Source: Patescibacteria group bacterium (lineage in GTDB: Bacteria; Patescibacteriota; Patescibacteriia; Magasanikbacterales; UBA922). Taken from it: DNA of 46,430 nucleotides. The stretch covers positions 1 through 46,430 of the forward strand of contig JAHJIX010000012.1 of the NCBI GenBank assembly GCA_018823045.1. The letters are read 5' to 3'. The translations under genes and the position numbers were made by a program. Numbering within the stretch: position 1 is the stretch's first letter; each line of letters starts with the position of its first letter. A model generated the notes under the pieces. It saw only the letters and a list, made by a program, of their open reading frames with translations, had not been told where the DNA came from and made no database searches. This document shows positions 7,740 to 25,747 of this stretch, piece after piece.

Positions 7740-7808
7740 ATGAATTACACAAAACAAAACAATTCAGTCGTGATTGGCCTCTTTATTATTAAGTCTCCAA
7801 ACTGGTGA
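7740..7808 (+). CDS. leader peptide A (22 aa) of the attenuator cassette
   Basis: A short ORF that starts MNYTKQNN, continues SVVIGLFIIK and ends SPNW-stop. The Gln-Asn-Asn codons (7755-7763) form the 5' arm of helix 1:2. The UGA stop (7806-7808) lies inside the 5' arm of the antiterminator. Cassette B has a leader at the equivalent position beginning MKYMQNN and ending HPNR-stop. The Val-Val-Ile-Gly-Leu-Phe-Ile-Ile run would be the control codons if charging is sensed. Support is positional and comparative within this window; translation is inferred. Confidence 0.65.
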   Translation: MNYTKQNNSVVIGLFIIKSPNW

Positions 7809-7864
7809 GTTGTTTTGATGTAATATAAAAATACAGAAAATAACCACCGGGAGGTGGATTTTTT
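7755..7864 (+). promoter_or_regulatory. transcription attenuator A: helices 1:2, 2:3 and terminator 3:4
   Basis: Helix 1:2 pairs CAAAACAATTC (7755-7765) with GAGTTGTTTTG (7807-7817), 11 bp with one G-U. Antiterminator 2:3 pairs CTGGTG-(A)-GTTGTTTT (7802-7816) with AAAATAACCACCGG (7837-7850), 14 bp with A7808 bulged. Terminator 3:4 pairs CCACC (7844-7848) with GGTGG (7853-7857) around GGGA, then six T. The helices are mutually exclusive. Expected logic: stalling in the middle of the leader ORF frees segment 2 and allows read-through. A ribosome at the stop codon, or no translation, favours termination. Confidence 0.75.
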
Positions 7865-7908
7865 AATACTCTATATTTTGGAGTGTTGTATTGATTGTTC
7901 TTTACAAA

Positions 7909-7961
7909 GACGTTGTTACTGCTAAGTGTTTACCTGATGAATATTTGGTGGTAATAACGTC
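7909..7961 (+). promoter_or_regulatory. long perfect hairpin A upstream of the ATP-grasp gene
   Basis: An uninterrupted 24-bp stem (arms 7909-7932 and 7938-7961, several G-U pairs) with loop CCTGA. It is preceded by the 15-mer ATTGTTCTTTACAAA (7894-7908) and followed 12 nt later by the Shine-Dalgarno AAAGGAG. The equivalent hairpin in cassette B differs by paired substitutions, so the fold rather than the primary sequence appears to be selected. Confidence 0.8.
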
Positions 7962-7986
7962 GCTACAGATTACAAAGGAGCTTGCT

Positions 7987-9378
7987 GTGCTGACATACTT
8001 AAATACCATCGTTATGGTCATCTGGGTCCGGATCCGATACTTGTGGATTCGACAGTTGATCAACTCTCTTCACGTGCATAACGTGGAGCAAACCTTCGCC
8101 GTTCCTGCAACAGGGACGCTCGCAAAGAAAGTGACGACCATCTGCTGGCGGTCACTGCACTTTGCAAAATCGGTATTGTTACCAACTTCACCAAGCAGTA
8201 AATTCGTTGACTATGTTGCTAAACTGTATGGGCAAAAGCCTGGAGTGTATGTACTGAGCAACGAATATACGGATGGTGTATTAAATACACTTGCCGCTGC
8301 TATGAAGGATATCCCCTTAATCAATACATTTCGGGGTATGAGACAATACTTGACGGGGTATGTAAATCACCATATTTTACATGACTTTGCCAACAGGGTG
8401 GGCTTGTCTGTATTGGGTGTCTCTCAAGATATACTCAAGACAGATTTACTTGCCAATGCAGGAAACAAAGTTTTTATGGCGAAGGTGTTTCGTCAACTAG
8501 GTCTCCGACCTCATGTTGGTGTGGTTTGCAAAAATTTGCAAGAGACCATAACTGCTTTGAGAGAACGTCTTTGGAATCAAGGTGAAGCTTTTGTGCGTCA
8601 GGGCGTTGGTGATGGTGGCCTAGGAAACCTCATTTTTACATATAAAGATAGGGTTTACGCTGGTAACTATGCAGGTGATGAAGTACCTGTTACTTCAGAT
8701 AATCTGCAGAGCCTATTTGCTCAATTGGGGATTGATGAAGAGTGGTGCGAACTCGGTGTACTCGTCGAGAAAAAGCATCAGCTGACTCGGTCTCCTGCCA
8801 TTTTGATCCATATTGATCAGCGCGGGAAAGTTCGCGTTGTCCAAATCCATGAGCAGTTGGTGACAGAAGATGGCGGTGCTTGCATCGGTATTCTTCGTCA
8901 TTTCAAGTCAGAGGTCTTGATCGCTGACATGGAGTTGCACGCTCAATTTGTCTCTGCGGGCCATAAGATTGGTGATTATTTTGCAGAGCAGGGTGTGACG
9001 AACACCTTTATGTCAATTGACACGATTCTCTGTGAAGAAGGCCTTCTTTTCTCAGAGATTAATCCGCGGCAAACTGCCGCATGTGTTGGACTGTTCATTG
9101 GGTATCGCTTAGGTTTATTGGACGATCGAGTTCTTCTGGCGGATGATCAATTCAAGACTTCTGCCGGAGATCTTGAGTCAGCATTAGATATTCTGGCTCA
9201 AGAAGATTTGTTGTATAACAAACGGACACGTAAGGGGATCGTCATCACCAACGAGCCACATGGTGGGTCCATGGGGATGATGATCGTCGCAAAGACCACA
9301 GAAGAATCTCGTGCTGTATATGCACGGGTGAAGCAGCTGCTCGGTAAAGGTGAGTGTAAACTCGCCAAAGCCGCGTAA
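7987..9378 (+). CDS. PGM1-like ATP-grasp peptide/amide ligase
   Basis: About 463 aa, ATP-grasp superfamily, most like the pheganomycin-ligase (PGM1) branch that forms amide bonds on small peptides. A pre-ATP-grasp block resembles the family (FAKSVLLPTSPSSKFVDYV). It is followed by GNKVFMAKVFRQLGLRPH and the glycine-rich ATP loop VRQGVGDGGLGN. The metal/phosphate motif is FSEINPRQTA (near residue 356), and a C-terminal PGM1_C-like domain begins RKGIVITNEPHGGSMGM. I chose GTG at 7987 because AAAGGAG lies 6 nt upstream and hairpin A occupies everything before it; the ORF stays open back to TTG 7891. GC content is visibly higher than in flanking genes. Substrate unknown; the first ~45 codons are uncertain because another frame is also open there. 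Confidence 0.78.
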   Translation: MLTYLNTIVMVIWVRIRYLWIRQLINSLHVHNVEQTFAVPATGTLAKKVTTICWRSLHFAKSVLLPTSPSSKFVDYVAKLYGQKPGVYVLSNEYTDGVLNTLAAAMKDIPLINTFRGMRQYLTGYVNHHILHDFANRVGLSVLGVSQDILKTDLLANAGNKVFMAKVFRQLGLRPHVGVVCKNLQETITALRERLWNQGEAFVRQGVGDGGLGNLIFTYKDRVYAGNYAGDEVPVTSDNLQSLFAQLGIDEEWCELGVLVEKKHQLTRSPAILIHIDQRGKVRVVQIHEQLVTEDGGACIGILRHFKSEVLIADMELHAQFVSAGHKIGDYFAEQGVTNTFMSIDTILCEEGLLFSEINPRQTAACVGLFIGYRLGLLDDRVLLADDQFKTSAGDLESALDILAQEDLLYNKRTRKGIVITNEPHGGSMGMMIVAKTTEESRAVYARVKQLLGKGECKLAKAA

Positions 9379-10652: not shown

Positions 10653-10709
10653 ATGAAATACATGCAAAACAACTTTTTCTTTTTTTTCTTTATCCACCCA
10701 AACCGGTGA
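10653..10709 (+). CDS. leader peptide B (18 aa) with six consecutive Phe codons
   Basis: The ORF reads MKYMQNN, then six Phe, then IHPNR-stop. The Phe run occupies codons 8-13 (10674-10691). The peptide resembles known Phe-sensing attenuator leaders such as the enterobacterial pheA leader in style, not by homology. The Gln-Asn-Asn codons form segment 1, and the UGA stop (10707-10709) lies within segment 2, exactly as in leader A. The -PN-(W/R)-stop ending is shared; the changed Trp/Arg codon (TGG/CGG) keeps base pairing with segment 3. Confidence 0.7.
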   Translation: MKYMQNNFFFFFFIHPNR

Positions 10710-10766
10710 GTTGTTTTGATGTATTTATAAAAAGATATCAATTTGGCCACCGGGGGGTGGTTTTTT
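10665..10766 (+). promoter_or_regulatory. transcription attenuator B: helices 1:2, 2:3 and terminator 3:4
   Basis: Helix 1:2 pairs CAAAACAACTT (10665-10675) with GAGTTGTTTTG (10708-10718). Antiterminator 2:3 starts with CCGGTG (10703-10708) pairing CACCGG (10748-10753). It continues through GTTG with a bulged A, then a 2x2 internal loop, then TTGATGT pairing ATATCAA (about 17 bp in all). Terminator 3:4 pairs CCACC (10747-10751) with GGTGG (10756-10760) around GGGG, followed by six T. Segment positions, the stop-codon overlap and the sequence CCAAACYGGTGAGTTGTTTT (20 nt) are conserved with attenuator A. Confidence 0.78.
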
Positions 10767-10791
10767 GATTACTGTATTGTTCTTTACAAAA

Positions 10792-10844
10792 GAAGTTACT
10801 ACCATGAAGTATTTTGTCTCAGAATATTTTATGGTAGTAATTTC
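10792..10844 (+). promoter_or_regulatory. long perfect hairpin B upstream of the GCS2-like gene
   Basis: An uninterrupted 25-bp stem (arms 10792-10816 and 10820-10844, three G-U pairs) with a three-base loop TCT. The same 15-mer as in cassette A (10776-10790) precedes it. The GAGGT Shine-Dalgarno begins 16 nt after the stem. Shared core with hairpin A: AAGTRTTT in the 5' arm and GAATATTT in the 3' arm. Confidence 0.8.
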
Positions 10845-10869
10845 GCTGCCATTACATACGAGGTACAAC

Positions 10870-11694
10870 ATGGTCGTTACCGCTATTCATCCACTCGTCC
10901 GTCCGTATCAGGAAGATATCTATCGGACAGGGCTTGAAGGATTCTACGGAGCAGAATTGGAGCTGGTTCTCTTTCGAAGAGGTTTGAAAGGGAATTTGAT
11001 TCCAGTGCTCGAAGTTGCCAGATTTTTAGGAGCTATCTGGAAAAGATATCCAAAATTAAGAAATAGTTTCGATAAAGAATTCTATGGTGGGCAATTTGAA
11101 ATTAAATCAGGGCCATATAAAAATCATATGGATTTGATTGATAACCTGTTGTATAAAGTTTTTATTGCTCAAGAGGTTGCAGAACAATTTGGATGGGAAG
11201 TGCACGCTGTGGAATTTTTACATGGTAAAATTCCACAAGGAGTGAGTCCTTTAAACGAAAGATATGAAGAATATAGGAAACAATATCCACATAAGGCTGA
11301 CTCGATGTATCGGGTCGCGTCTCTTCATATCCACCGTGGGGCTTCTTCATTGGAGCAAGCCATTGATTTGTACAATGCAATGGTTCGCTCCTTGCCAATA
11401 ATTGTTGACAAGGGGTGGATTGATCCTACTCGTTTGAAACACTTTAATGAGATTATATTTCCTGTTGGCTATTTTCCACCAGAGTATAATAACTTGGATT
11501 CGATGGTGGAACATGCAAGAAGTCATGGATTTTTGGATTCTTTGCGTGGAAACTATAGTGCTGTTCGTATTCATGAAATCTATGGAACTGCGGAGCTCCG
11601 TGTCATGGGTCCAACCCTCGAGAGGAGTGAGTTGATCAAACGTTTCCGGTTTGTGGATATGGTTTGTCGTCCGTATTACTTAATGGCAGCTTAA
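10870..11694 (+). CDS. GCS2-like carboxylate-amine ligase (glutamate-cysteine ligase family 2)
   Basis: About 274 aa of the glutamine-synthetase-fold amide ligases (GCS2/COG2170-like). Visible blocks: GLEGFYGAELELVLF (metal-binding Glu pair), GGQFEIKSGPY, a helix KVFIAQEVAEQFGWEVHA, SLHIHRGASSLEQAI (the HVHVG-type motif), and GTAELRVMGPTLE near the C-terminus (EvRv motif). It is shorter than typical GCS2 proteins (about 370 aa). Expected chemistry is ATP-dependent amide formation between an amino-acid carboxylate and an amine; substrates are unknown. The ATG at 10870 follows GAGGT; earlier in-frame codons lie inside hairpin B. Composition is more GC-rich than neighbours at its ends. Confidence 0.7.
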   Translation: MVVTAIHPLVRPYQEDIYRTGLEGFYGAELELVLFRRGLKGNLIPVLEVARFLGAIWKRYPKLRNSFDKEFYGGQFEIKSGPYKNHMDLIDNLLYKVFIAQEVAEQFGWEVHAVEFLHGKIPQGVSPLNERYEEYRKQYPHKADSMYRVASLHIHRGASSLEQAIDLYNAMVRSLPIIVDKGWIDPTRLKHFNEIIFPVGYFPPEYNNLDSMVEHARSHGFLDSLRGNYSAVRIHEIYGTAELRVMGPTLERSELIKRFRFVDMVCRPYYLMAA

Positions 11695-14065: not shown

Positions 14066-14545
14066 ATGAAATTTGAAGGCATTTATGAGAAAACATTTCT
14101 CATCGTAAAACCAGATGGTGTTCAACGTGGACTCGTTGGTGAAGTAATTCGCCGTTTAGAGCTTAAGGGCTTAAAAATTGCAGGATTAAAAATGATGACA
14201 CTTGATGAAAATAAATTACGTGAACATTATGCACACTTGGTAGAAAAACCATTTTACCCAGGGCTTGAAGGATTTATGAAATCAAATCCAGTAGTAGCAT
14301 TATGTGTTGAAGGAAAAGGTGCTGTAGATGCTGTGCGTTTAATCGCTGGTATTACTCATGCTGGACAAGCAGATGGAGGTACCATTCGTGGTGATTTAGC
14401 TATGGGTATGTGTAATGTTGTCCATTGTTCTGATTCTTTAGAAAATGCAAAAGCTGAAGTGGGTCGCTTTTTTTCTGAAGATGAGGTGTTTGAATATGAC
14501 AAAACAGATTATCTTCATGTGTATATGGATGATGAGCGTGAATAA
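14066..14545 (+). CDS. ndk: nucleoside diphosphate kinase
   Basis: Transfers the gamma phosphate from NTPs to NDPs through a phosphohistidine; 159 aa. Signatures: KTFLIVKPDGVQRGLVGE at the N-terminus, TIRGDLAMG, and the active-site NVVHCSDSLENA, where most bacterial enzymes have HGSDS (Gly to Cys beside the catalytic His). A short N-terminal MKFEGIYE extension is present. Start 14066 is chosen because the upstream in-frame codons run through the TATAAT promoter. Confidence 0.95.
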   Translation: MKFEGIYEKTFLIVKPDGVQRGLVGEVIRRLELKGLKIAGLKMMTLDENKLREHYAHLVEKPFYPGLEGFMKSNPVVALCVEGKGAVDAVRLIAGITHAGQADGGTIRGDLAMGMCNVVHCSDSLENAKAEVGRFFSEDEVFEYDKTDYLHVYMDDERE

Positions 14546-14605: not shown

Positions 14606-14717
14606 CCTCCCCTATAAGGGGAGGTTAGGTGGGCTCTTTCGAAGGAGATAAAGAAGGATTAATCTATATCCATCTTAATTGCAAAGATAGACCCCCTCTA
14701 ACTTCCACTCGTAGGAG
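14606..14717. repeat. REP/MITE-like imperfect inverted-repeat element
   Basis: The left end carries CCTCCCC, TATA, GGGGAGGTTAGGTGGG (14606-14633). The right end (14690-14717) read in reverse complement gives CTCCTACGAGTGGAAGTTAG followed by AGGGGGTC. The two ends are imperfect inverted copies enclosing about 55 nt, and the left end also contains its own small palindrome. This is the style of REP/BIME elements. Only one copy is seen in the window. Confidence 0.55.
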
Positions 14718-14740
14718 AATTATTTATGTGGATAAGTTTC

Positions 14741-14769
14741 TTGACGAATTGTTAATGTTCTAGTACAGT
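14741..14769 (+). promoter_or_regulatory. promoter of cassette C
   Basis: TTGACG, a 17-nt spacer, then TACAGT; the predicted start is about 32 nt before the leader ORF ATG. Confidence 0.7.
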
Positions 14770-14807
14770 AAAACAAGTGGGGTAATTGCCCTCAAAAAAA
14801 TAATAGT

Positions 14808-14975
14808 ATGAATACTGCTTCATTGCATACAATTTCTCGTACTAGCTGCATTCTCTTTGATATGTGGAATGTTGTGGTGTCTGTAGATTATACAGCCCTT
14901 ATTCCAGCAAAGATGGAGGCCTTACGAGAAAAAGACAATGGAGGAGTATGTTGTAGCAAATCGTGCAACAACTAA
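14808..14975 (+). CDS. putative 55-aa Cys-ending leader ORF of cassette C
   Basis: Starts MNTASLHTISRTSCILF and ends NGGVCCSKSCNN-stop. Two adjacent Cys codons (14952-14957) and a third (14964-14966) lie just ahead of an antiterminator/terminator pair, as expected for Cys-codon attenuation. Alternatively it is a small precursor peptide with a Gly-Gly and a Cys-rich core, since two ligase genes lie nearby. No Shine-Dalgarno is present. A second frame also opens an 18-codon ORF (MEEYVVANRATTKSKKIL) from 14938, so coding status is uncertain. Confidence 0.4.
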   Translation: MNTASLHTISRTSCILFDMWNVVVSVDYTALIPAKMEALREKDNGGVCCSKSCNN

Positions 14976-15025
14976 GTCAAAAAAAATCTTGTAAGGCCAC
15001 CTAAATGATTAGGTGGTTTTTATTT
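14915..15025 (+). promoter_or_regulatory. attenuator C: 14-bp antiterminator and terminator
   Basis: GGAGGCCTTACGAGA (14915-14929) pairs with TCTTGTAAGGCCACC (14987-15001), 14 pairs with one A-A mismatch, occluding the 5' arm of the terminator. The terminator pairs CCACCTAA (14997-15004) with TTAGGTGG (15009-15016), followed by TTTTTATTTG. The Cys-codon region and a small internal hairpin (GTTGTAGCA with TGCAACAAC) lie in the antiterminator loop. Confidence 0.6.
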
Positions 15026-15046
15026 GTTCTTTATAACATCATATGG

Positions 15047-15098
15047 TCGGAGTATCCGCTTTGGAGAAGAATATTCTTCTTTAGTGTGGATATTCCGA
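15047..15098 (+). promoter_or_regulatory. long hairpin C
   Basis: A near-perfect stem of about 23 bp (one T-T mismatch) closes on AATATT. It follows TTTGTTCTTTA (15023-15033), similar to the 15-mer of cassettes A and B. AAAGGGGG and an ATG (15111) follow, but that ORF is only five codons (MLMQG, stop at 15126-15128). Confidence 0.65.
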
Positions 15099-15110
15099 AA
15101 GGGGGTTCTC

Positions 15111-15171
15111 ATGTTGATGCAGGGCTAGTGCCCACTCATAAGGGGCATTTTGCCCTGCCAACGGTTTTTTT
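15111..15171 (+). promoter_or_regulatory. mini-ORF and alternative-hairpin switch
   Basis: Mini-ORF MLMQG (15111-15128) runs into GCAGGGC (15119-15125), which pairs with GCCCTGC (15152-15158). GGGCA (15143-15147) can pair either with TGCCC at 15129-15133 or with TGCCC at 15151-15155. A seven-T run follows at 15164. This looks like a second tandem attenuator upstream of the zinc-ribbon gene. Confidence 0.45.
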
Positions 15172-15191
15172 ACTGCTATTTTCCGTCTCAA

Positions 15192-15248
15192 AAAATAGCC
15201 TGTCCATATGGGTAGTAATGAATAGTATCTATGTGGGCAGGTTATTTT
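15192..15248 (+). promoter_or_regulatory. long perfect hairpin D upstream of the zinc-ribbon gene
   Basis: A 23-bp uninterrupted stem (arms 15192-15214 and 15226-15248, some G-U) with an 11-nt loop. The Shine-Dalgarno AAAGGA and the ATG at 15268 follow, the same hairpin, Shine-Dalgarno, start order as in cassettes A and B. Confidence 0.7.
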
Positions 15249-15267
15249 AACAAAAAAGGACAAGATA

Positions 15268-15495
15268 ATGGCTAAAACAAAAACATGTAAAGAATGTGGT
15301 ACTCGCATTAAGCGTTGTCATGGCGACAAATGCCCAAGGTGCAATGTGCATCGTCGTGATTCACGTCCTCCACAAGCTTCTCTGCCTGAGGAATCAGGTC
15401 CTGATCGAGTTATGAATGAGGGACTGATGCGTCTGCTCGGCGTGATTCCTCCGAAAAAACAATCAACGCGCAAGGAAAGAAAGCAAAGAAAGTAA
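15268..15495 (+). CDS. small basic zinc-ribbon-like protein
   Basis: 75 aa. The N-terminal third has CKECG (C7-x2-C10), an intervening KRCHGDK, and CPRCN (C22-x2-C25), the spacing of a small zinc ribbon. The middle is Pro/Ser-rich, and the C-terminus is strongly basic (KKQSTRKERKQRK), suggesting nucleic-acid or ribosome binding. No family recognised. AAAAGGA lies about 8 nt before the ATG. It is the first real ORF after the complex cassette C leader, so its expression is probably attenuated in response to translation. Confidence 0.65.
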   Translation: MAKTKTCKECGTRIKRCHGDKCPRCNVHRRDSRPPQASLPEESGPDRVMNEGLMRLLGVIPPKKQSTRKERKQRK

Positions 15496-15532
15496 AGGTG
15501 AAACTGTTGTCTAATCATGAGAAAACAAAAAC

Positions 15533-15558
15533 AAAGAGTACAGCAAGCTGTACTCTTT
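15533..15558. terminator. hairpin terminator between convergent genes
   Basis: An 11-bp perfect stem (AAAGAGTACAG / CTGTACTCTTT) with loop CAAG. It is symmetrical enough to serve both directions. Confidence 0.6.
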
Positions 15559-15597
15559 AGACATGTGTATTTTATCTAAATGATAGAATATATATGT

Positions 15598-15909
15598 TTA
15601 TCCTATCTTATATTGAGCAATAGTCATCTCAATTCGCTTTGCCTCCTGTTCTACGCGTGGTCCATCGTATTCTGCATTATGTGCATGAGACCCAGTATAA
15701 CTTGCTTTTTTTTGGTCTAAATGAAGATTGACGACAAATCCATTGTCAGTGGTATCTATATAGACATGGAATCGTGGGTAGAATCCATTACCCATGCGAC
15801 GGACATAGCTTATTTGGCGTGTTTTGTGATCAAATATTTCTCCATAAGCACATTTGCGCATAATTTGTCTTGGTATAAATTGATATTGTCCTATACAGTA
15901 AATTTTCAT
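15598..15909 (-). CDS. conserved hypothetical protein
   Basis: 103 aa, soluble, beta-rich in appearance. Distinct stretches are QYQFIPRQIMRKCAYGEIFD, FYPRFHVYIDTTDNGFVVNL, HLDQKKASYTGSHAHNAEYDG and a C-terminal helix. It resembles, from memory, a small hypothetical protein common in Parcubacteria; no function is known to me. A good minus-strand promoter (15934-15963) lies about 25 nt upstream. Confidence 0.65.
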   Translation of the reverse strand: MKIYCIGQYQFIPRQIMRKCAYGEIFDHKTRQISYVRRMGNGFYPRFHVYIDTTDNGFVVNLHLDQKKASYTGSHAHNAEYDGPRVEQEAKRIEMTIAQYKIG

Positions 15910-17355: not shown

Positions 17356-17775
17356 ATGCCAACAATGAATCAGATTCTCCGAAAGGGGAGACACTCAAAG
17401 GTGAAAAAGTCTGCGTCACCTGCGATGCAATACACATACAACAGTTTGCGTCGAAAAAGAACGGATCTCCGTCGTGGAGCACCATTTAAACGTGGAGTAT
17501 GTACAAAAGTATACACAATGACCCCAAAGAAACCGAACTCAGCGCTTCGTAAAGTTGCTAAAATTCGTCTTTCTAATGGGTCAGAAGTTATTGCCTATAT
17601 TCCAGGTGAAGGACACAATTTGCAAGAACACTCTATTGTACTTATTCGTGGTGGTCGTGTAAAAGATTTGCCAGGTGTACGTTACCATATTGTTCGTGGT
17701 GTATATGATACACAAGGTGTTGAAGGTCGAAAAAGAAGCCGTTCTATTTATGGAACAAAGCGACCAAAAAGTTAA
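17356..17775 (+). CDS. rpsL: 30S ribosomal protein S12
   Basis: 139 aa. Decoding-centre protein with the signature [19 protein letters not shown] and the later [32 protein letters not shown], which holds the PxD-type loop near the decoding site. The lysine associated with streptomycin sensitivity (KKPNSA) is wild type. The ATG at 17356 is preferred over an upstream in-frame TTG that lies inside the leader terminator. First gene of rpsL-rpsG-fusA. Confidence 0.97.
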
Positions 17776-25685: not shown

Positions 25686-25695
25686 CATGACGTCA

Positions 25696-25726
25696 ACACA
25701 CGGGGGGCTTTCCCCGTGTGTTTTTG
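25696..25726 (+). terminator. terminator between tuf and rpsJ
   Basis: CACACGGGG / CCCCGTGTG perfect stem, loop GGCTTT, T5. rpsJ begins only about 21 nt later, so it relies on read-through or on a short internal promoter. Confidence 0.88.
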
Positions 25727-25747
25727 TTCTTTAATTATGCTATTTAT

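Follow-up and report, generated by a model that had tools for sequence, protein, structure and literature searches.

A putative ndk-adjacent attenuator followed by tandem hairpin-led start sites in Magasanikbacteria

Closest described systems and the locus

To our knowledge, how Patescibacteria regulate their genes is poorly understood. Attenuation of the trp, his and phe type is mediated by the ribosome and makes use of a leader peptide and of mutually exclusive antiterminator and terminator structures; integron cassette arrays combine a fixed promoter with exchangeable genes. Among the literature matches listed, from a search that mostly did not reach subscription papers, no attenuator was described for Magasanikbacteria, and one review on Patescibacteria contains neither "attenuat" nor "leader" in its text. 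In gamma-proteobacteria, boxA has been described outside rRNA (suhB, NusE) with the consensus GYTCTTTAANA (PMC5725501). LoaP antitermination involves a small hairpin of the UNCG type in the dfn leader, which appears to act on the following terminator (PMC12691694).

The whole stretch of DNA analysed here (46,430 nucleotides), referred to as the window, is part of a 1.16-Mb genome (G000) and displays the gene order uvrD-like gene, ndk (ending at 14545), the studied region, a 103-aa gene on the - strand, M50 peptidase and rpsG. Going by the nearest named records, found with ndk, the family belongs to Ca. Magasanikbacteria (12 of 13 loci bear this name, and one is named Parcubacteria). Our sample of the family comprised 46 genomes, and 30 ndk loci were inspected, 28 of which were fetched while two (G058, G059) were reached via a zinc-ribbon profile. 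A first-pass annotation had drawn attention to the segment 15047-15268, which lies just downstream of a terminator (14993-15025) and of TGTTCTTTA (15025-15033); judged from the sequences, it forms the distal end of a leader that the family has conserved. The region contains the following features:

14741-14769, + strand: leader promoter TTGACG-17-TACAGT, matching the consensus at 9 of 12 positions
14808-14975, + strand: leader ORF of 55 codons with three Cys among the last 20 residues, from the sequence
14915-14929, + strand: possible antiterminator arm a, GGAGGCCTTACGAGA, within the leader ORF, from the pairing score
14993-15025, + strand: intrinsic terminator 1 (the earlier "terminator C"), whose 5' arm b is able to pair with a; from scan, fold and pairing score
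15025-15037, + strand: boxA-like sequence TGTTCTTTATAAC, with the strict core in 4 of 19 other loci
15047-15098, + strand: hairpin C, 23 pairs including several G-U; its positional equivalent is a 26-pair hairpin in G001
15101-15128, + strand: Shine-Dalgarno sequence GGGGG and five-codon ORF, a probable remnant start site, from the sequence and from full ORFs at this place in G001 and G044
15113-15171 (about), + strand: second, terminator-like stem with seven T, overlapping the mini-ORF, from folding only
15192-15248, + strand: hairpin D, 25 pairs; its positional equivalent is hairpin 2 of G044
15256-15260, + strand: Shine-Dalgarno sequence AAGGA of the zinc-ribbon gene, from the sequence
15268-15495, + strand: small protein of 75 aa with CxxC and CPxC (zinc-ribbon-like), with alignable relatives and profile matches

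In the family, the layout starts with ndk, a promoter, a leader ORF of 35-70 codons containing arm a, and a terminator, followed by a boxA-like sequence in some loci, a hairpin of 45-64 nt, a Shine-Dalgarno sequence and a small variable gene. Like attenuators of the trp, his and phe type, the locus combines a promoter, a short leader ORF, putative mutually exclusive antiterminator and terminator structures and a downstream gene. In contrast to that type, arm a of these leaders is found inside the ORF at a near-fixed distance from its start, the leaders reveal no common run of codons for one amino acid, and the downstream gene varies between genomes and cannot be recognised as a biosynthetic one. 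The combination of a constant promoter and leader with exchangeable small genes delimited by hairpins also forms a parallel to integrons; unlike in these, no attC core was seen by eye, and the hairpins display signs of selection at the RNA level. As in boxA systems, NusB is encoded (PF01029, 120.8 bits), and a related motif, TCNYTACAA, is present in 17 of 24 16S leaders of the family. The sequence TGTTCTTTA resembles non-rRNA boxA in lying in an mRNA leader and in being near the gamma-proteobacterial consensus GYTCTTTAANA, but differs from those cases in standing after an intrinsic terminator and before a long hairpin (PMC5725501). As in the LoaP-controlled dfn leader, an intrinsic terminator and a hairpin of the leader precede the gene, but the hairpins here are long and situated 3' of terminator 1, whereas the dfn hairpin is small (PMC12691694).

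Several other origins of the region were considered and rejected. At gathering score, the window matched Rfam models only for 16S rRNA and for a single tRNA, and all nine matches in 14700-15700 were far below their cut-offs, which speaks against a known riboswitch or small RNA. A dispersed repeat was dismissed because searching its own genome at the DNA level, with E values up to 10, revealed no second copy of the region, other matches being stretches of 14-20 bases with E of at least 0.5. A phage origin was likewise set aside, as PHROGs matches were weak for ten proteins, the best E values being 0.0052 for a small protein and 0.0024 for the leader peptide of the window.

The leader and its putative attenuator

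The leader was recognised in 20 of the 30 ndk loci of the family (G000, G001, G002, G006, G009-G014, G018, G021, G041, G042, G044, G045, G046, G048, G058 and G059), in G042 by eye only and with its terminator unscored; the named record SI075_bin20 (L086) carries it as well. It was not seen in the other ten loci (G003, G004, G016, G017, G022, G024, G039, G040, G047 and G052), some of which are situated at a contig edge, while G022, G024, G040, G047 and G052 were judged by arm score alone. In G039, ndk is followed by a Cys-rich ORF, but the score indicates no arm. Outside the family, ndk was inspected at seven loci (L206-L212), none of which displays such an arm. Of 20 leader loci, 17 have a TTGAC-type pattern ahead of the ORF, and an ORF of 35-70 codons is found in all 20, which were chosen for having one. 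The leader peptides show no invariant column across 19 sequences, and a tail rich in Cys is present in many of them; cysteine sensing is nevertheless not proposed for the leader, since this tail is not general, 5 of 20 peptides having none or one Cys among their last 20 residues.

Arm a can form 14 pairs with 14987-15001, a span including the 5' arm of terminator 1, and its pairing score of 30.5 is reached by none of the 235 terminators that served as controls, which come from 393 kb of the window's genome. Seventeen leaders were chosen by synteny and ORF, although the arm had already been noticed by eye in a few of them. All but one of the 17 were scored at the right terminator; eight of these 16 exceeded all 235 controls, and the scores of the remaining eight were reached by 0.9-7.7% of them. 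Three of four further leaders also lie above all controls, but were selected by that very score. These comparisons are to be read with all controls stemming from the window's own genome and most test loci from other genomes of different base composition, and some test genomes share a genus and are not independent (G009, G058 and G059; G014 and G048).

Arm sequences differ from genome to genome while the pairing stays, so that mutually exclusive terminator and antiterminator structures appear to be kept as the sequence changes. In all 20 loci for which the position was determined (19 family genomes and SI075_bin20), arm a starts 80-109 nt from the ATG of the leader ORF. That it lies within the ORF carries no independent weight, because the arm was searched 20-160 nt before the terminator and the ORF fills most of that span. 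The anatomy of a first, putatively attenuating stage, made up of the leader ORF with its arm a and of terminator 1, is well supported; attenuation itself, and a signal controlling it, would be in line with this anatomy.

Behind the terminator, the strict core TGYTCTTTR is shared by G001, G002, G021 and G044, so that it occurs within 110 nt after the leader terminator in 5 of 20 loci including the window, compared to 64 of 20,000 stretches drawn at random from the window's genome. The sequence TGTTCTTTA itself is present five times in the window (1.0 expected), and four of the five sites follow a terminator at a distance of up to about 40 nt, preceding an ATP-grasp-like gene, a GCS2-like gene, the zinc-ribbon locus and rpsJ. 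As a general marker it was rejected, the genome containing 40 matches compared to 76 for the reversed control; the bare 9-mer is not enriched, and only the position after terminators is telling.

The 17 occurrences of TCNYTACAA compare with 0.5 expected in the 16S leaders (e.g., L152, L161, L166, L170 and L171), a set of 25 loci, one of which had no recognisable start and left 24. This motif is likely the boxA of 16S leaders in the clade; the window's own 16S leader deviates from it by one base and is not among the 17. With a matrix derived from the 16S sites plus that of the window, the sites at 7896 and 10778 scored above all 236 controls and the one at 15025 at 0.8%. All 22 sites together gave p = 0.012, and the 18 left without the window's other four (17 of the ndk type and one second-type leader of G006) p = 0.09. 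This value and the strict core in only 5 of 20 loci do not support boxA as a constant component of the leader; a role in some loci would be a fair guess.

Three further observations concern these motifs. At 25695-25735, the terminator of a tuf-like gene is immediately followed by TGTTCTTTA and by the region in which rpsJ, the gene for S10/NusE, starts; an autoregulation of NusE through boxA would fit this arrangement, though the site scores low with the 16S-derived matrix. In G010 (L023), a tRNA-like gene was seen by eye after the leader terminator, followed by CGATCATTACAATT, a boxA form of the 16S type, and then by a small gene. Split or over-long 16S matches, due to insertions or contig breaks, were obtained for G001, G021, G024, G041, G043, G045 and G046, among others.

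Hairpins, start sites and the genes behind them

The segment is a real, structured and recurrent control region. Hairpins C and D, which the first-pass annotation had reported, are both found at their positions, with 23 pairs, -31.1 kcal/mol and z -7.8 for hairpin C and 25 pairs, -32.0 kcal/mol and z -10.0 for hairpin D; none of 200 shuffles was as stable in either case. Folding of 14985-15300 gave z -8.7, matched by none of 100 shuffles. The proposed unit of hairpin, Shine-Dalgarno sequence and start does occur twice in tandem, every element being in its place: GGGGG (15101-15105), ATG (15111) and TAG (15126-15128) enclose the five-codon ORF between the hairpins (ATG TTG ATG CAG GGC TAG), and AAGGA (15256-15260) and the ATG at 15268 follow hairpin D. 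A survey of the window and 20 stretches (393 kb) of its genome, 439,430 bases altogether, revealed 19 stems with a score of at least 40, counted strand-wise. Six of them belong to the window, four being situated within 7.4 kb (7909, 10792, 15047 and 15192). A genome-wide habit was rejected, as among the 13 strong hairpins of the 393-kb sample only L098 precedes a Shine-Dalgarno sequence and a start.

Across the family, a hairpin scoring at least 34 was found within 320 nt after the terminator in 14 of 20 loci. Among controls from the window's genome, 7 of 235 terminators and 5 of 400 randomly placed stretches have one. By this measure it is missing in G002, G021, G041, G046, G010 and G013. G009, G058 and G059 display a second hairpin at the actual or expected place of the zinc-ribbon gene, which may be coding, and in G011 two tandem hairpins with a six-codon GTG ORF between them were seen by eye.

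Strong palindromes at variable gene boundaries, with a gene behind the leader that changes between genomes, could also be DNA elements, such as a mobile repeat, a REP/MITE or an attC-like site, standing before genes by chance. We regard this as highly improbable. No second genomic copy came up in the search mentioned above, and no common core sequence was seen by eye. In addition, stems defined by Watson-Crick pairs contained 41 G-U, 4 A-C and 15 other mismatches in 15 of 18 hairpins (hairpin C, the window's hairpin at 7909 and that of G006 were not found by such pairs alone); as an A-C on one strand is a G-U on the other, it is the + strand RNA that is kept. The ratio of 41:4 is partly selected, because the hairpins were first found by a search tolerating G-U, and a fairer test is the count on both strands, in which this finder detected 19 hairpins for the sense strand as compared to 7 for the antisense strand. 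Both figures point to RNA, and selection seems to act on the sense RNA.

The 75-aa protein matched no Pfam family at the cut-off, and its single sequence, used as a query against 38 other genomes, gave no match at E 0.01. Alignable relatives stand behind the leader in G044, G002 and G041. A profile of the four rows matched G059 (E 4.5e-5) and G058 (E 0.0018); outside the four training genomes three matches were read, namely these two and one of G021, which was set aside. A zinc-ribbon-like gene follows the leader in G000, G002, G041, G044, G058 and G059, other proteins with CxxC or CxxxxC in G006 and G046, and other small proteins in G001, G012, G014, G021, G042, G045 and G048; these assignments cover the loci other than G009, G010, G011, G013 and G018. 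Many of the small genes behind the hairpins, placed 300-1130 bases after ndk, are rich in G+C (about 0.5-0.7; L085, L087, L091, L092, L094 and L095), and the zinc ribbon of the window has 0.46, compared to 0.37 for the window.

Two relatives, G001 and G044, do possess the segment and a full ORF after the equivalent of hairpin C. In G001, the sole genome of the same genus examined, leader, terminator, TGTTCTTTA and the 26-pair hairpin stand in equivalent places, followed by AAAGGAAATATC and the ATG of a complete 61-aa ORF, which begins 12 bases after the hairpin and has AAGGA ahead of its ATG. The contig stops at the hairpin, and its last 141 bases are the end of a second contig that carries the continuation. 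Synteny is given by ndk upstream and, by reading, by a gene homologous to the 103-aa one and then M50 downstream; hairpin D is absent from G001, and the zinc-ribbon profile found no match there up to E 1. G044 displays hairpin 1, a 43-aa ORF, hairpin 2 and a zinc ribbon of 62 aa with 27% identity to that of the window and all four Cys kept. No resemblance was seen between the 61-aa and the 43-aa ORF. In the simplest history, the module of hairpin C, start and gene would have lost its gene in the window, and the module of hairpin D, start and zinc ribbon would be the live one, although there may instead have been a gain in the relatives.

Two other places in the window, 7740-7990 and 10653-10870, revealed similar leaders of a second type, before an ATP-grasp-like (PGM1_C) and a GCS2-like gene. 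They combine a short leader peptide, which in one of them has six Phe in a row by eye, with the shared GGTGAGTTGTTTTG, a terminator, TGTTCTTTACAAA, a 53-nt hairpin and the start. The same type is present in G006, directly behind its ndk-type locus, and this is the one further genome in which GGTGAGTTGTTTTG is a leader element, the remaining two matches (G000, G056) resembling coding sequence by eye. None of the three leaders has an arm of the ndk type by pairing score, and only two distant relatives of the GCS2 protein (G001, G012) were found among 45 other genomes. A T-box-like leader, GGGTGGAACCG, was also seen by eye in L105 on the - strand (near 17654-17719, counted on that strand), before a threonyl-tRNA-synthetase-like gene.

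Proposed mechanism and its meaning

We consider it probable that the segment makes up the distal half of a transcription unit under attenuation control, in which the gene of hairpin C has been lost and hairpin D leads the live one. The RNA would start at about 14775, going by the promoter pattern, and a ribosome would translate the leader ORF. Arm a, inside this ORF, and the 3' arm c would compete for b, and the ribosome or another signal would set whether terminator 1 forms. Read-through RNA would bear the boxA-like sequence and then start sites led by hairpins acting as sense-strand RNA, each comprising a hairpin of 45-64 nt, a Shine-Dalgarno sequence and a small gene. Hairpin C would, in an ancestor, have led a complete small gene, of which a start, five codons and a terminator-like stem would remain in the window, and hairpin D would lead the zinc-ribbon gene now expressed. 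The most likely role of the hairpins would be to insulate or protect the start site, providing a stable 5' end and possibly a site for RNase III. That they are mainly RNase III sites, at which the leader is cut off and each start receives a protected 5' end, is unlikely, albeit compatible with the preferred explanation rather than opposed to it; the stems have 19-27 pairs, near the size of RNase III substrates, and are located between leader and Shine-Dalgarno sequence.

The first-pass annotation had left the choice between a remnant of a lost gene and a two-stage control, and the full ORFs of G001 and G044 favour the former. In a two-stage control, the mini-ORF would be a working regulatory uORF: a ribosome at 15111 would cover the 5' arm of the second stem and let the polymerase proceed to hairpin D, and without initiation transcription would end near 15171. 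A start complex with the usual footprint would cover the 5' side of the stem, which the mini-ORF overlaps according to coordinates and fold, and the tandem hairpins of G011 with their six-codon ORF would suit a regulatory reading. Of the alternative helices and T run proposed earlier, the run TTTTTTT (15165-15171) stands, while the helix pair is better read as one stem, into which the region mainly folds. For 15099-15190, this stem is composed of GTTG/CAAC, GCAGGGC/GCCCTGC and TGCCC/GGGCA with bulges (z -2.7, equalled by 3 of 200 shuffles); folding of 15115-15180 gave -28.8 kcal/mol and z -3.8 (1 of 200). The stem, at about 15113-15162, is terminator-like because the seven T follow it one or two bases further 3'. 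A second terminator is thereby suggested by one fold, in the window's genome. The stem is bulged and of modest z. It was missed in the window by a simple pattern scan and by our gapless finder, and a two-stage control was rated lower for this reason. The finder detected no second terminator in 20 loci, a result that cannot decide the matter as it missed the window's stem too. The features of the stem, its absence from both scans and the ordinary ORF at the equivalent place of the sister genome G001 make two-stage control quite unlikely. In the preferred reading, with a lost gene behind hairpin C, a ribosome at the start site 15101-15128 may, more weakly supported, still keep the second stem open.

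At one locus found across the family, a conserved control region contrasts with a changing payload, which is an unusual division. We tentatively propose, while regarding it as rather doubtful, that the ndk-adjacent attenuator of Magasanikbacteria serves as an expression platform for exchangeable modules of hairpin, Shine-Dalgarno sequence and small gene. If so, modules would be gained, lost and stacked, while leader, terminator and sometimes boxA stay, and the window would represent one emptied module, perhaps converted to a second terminator, and then a live module.
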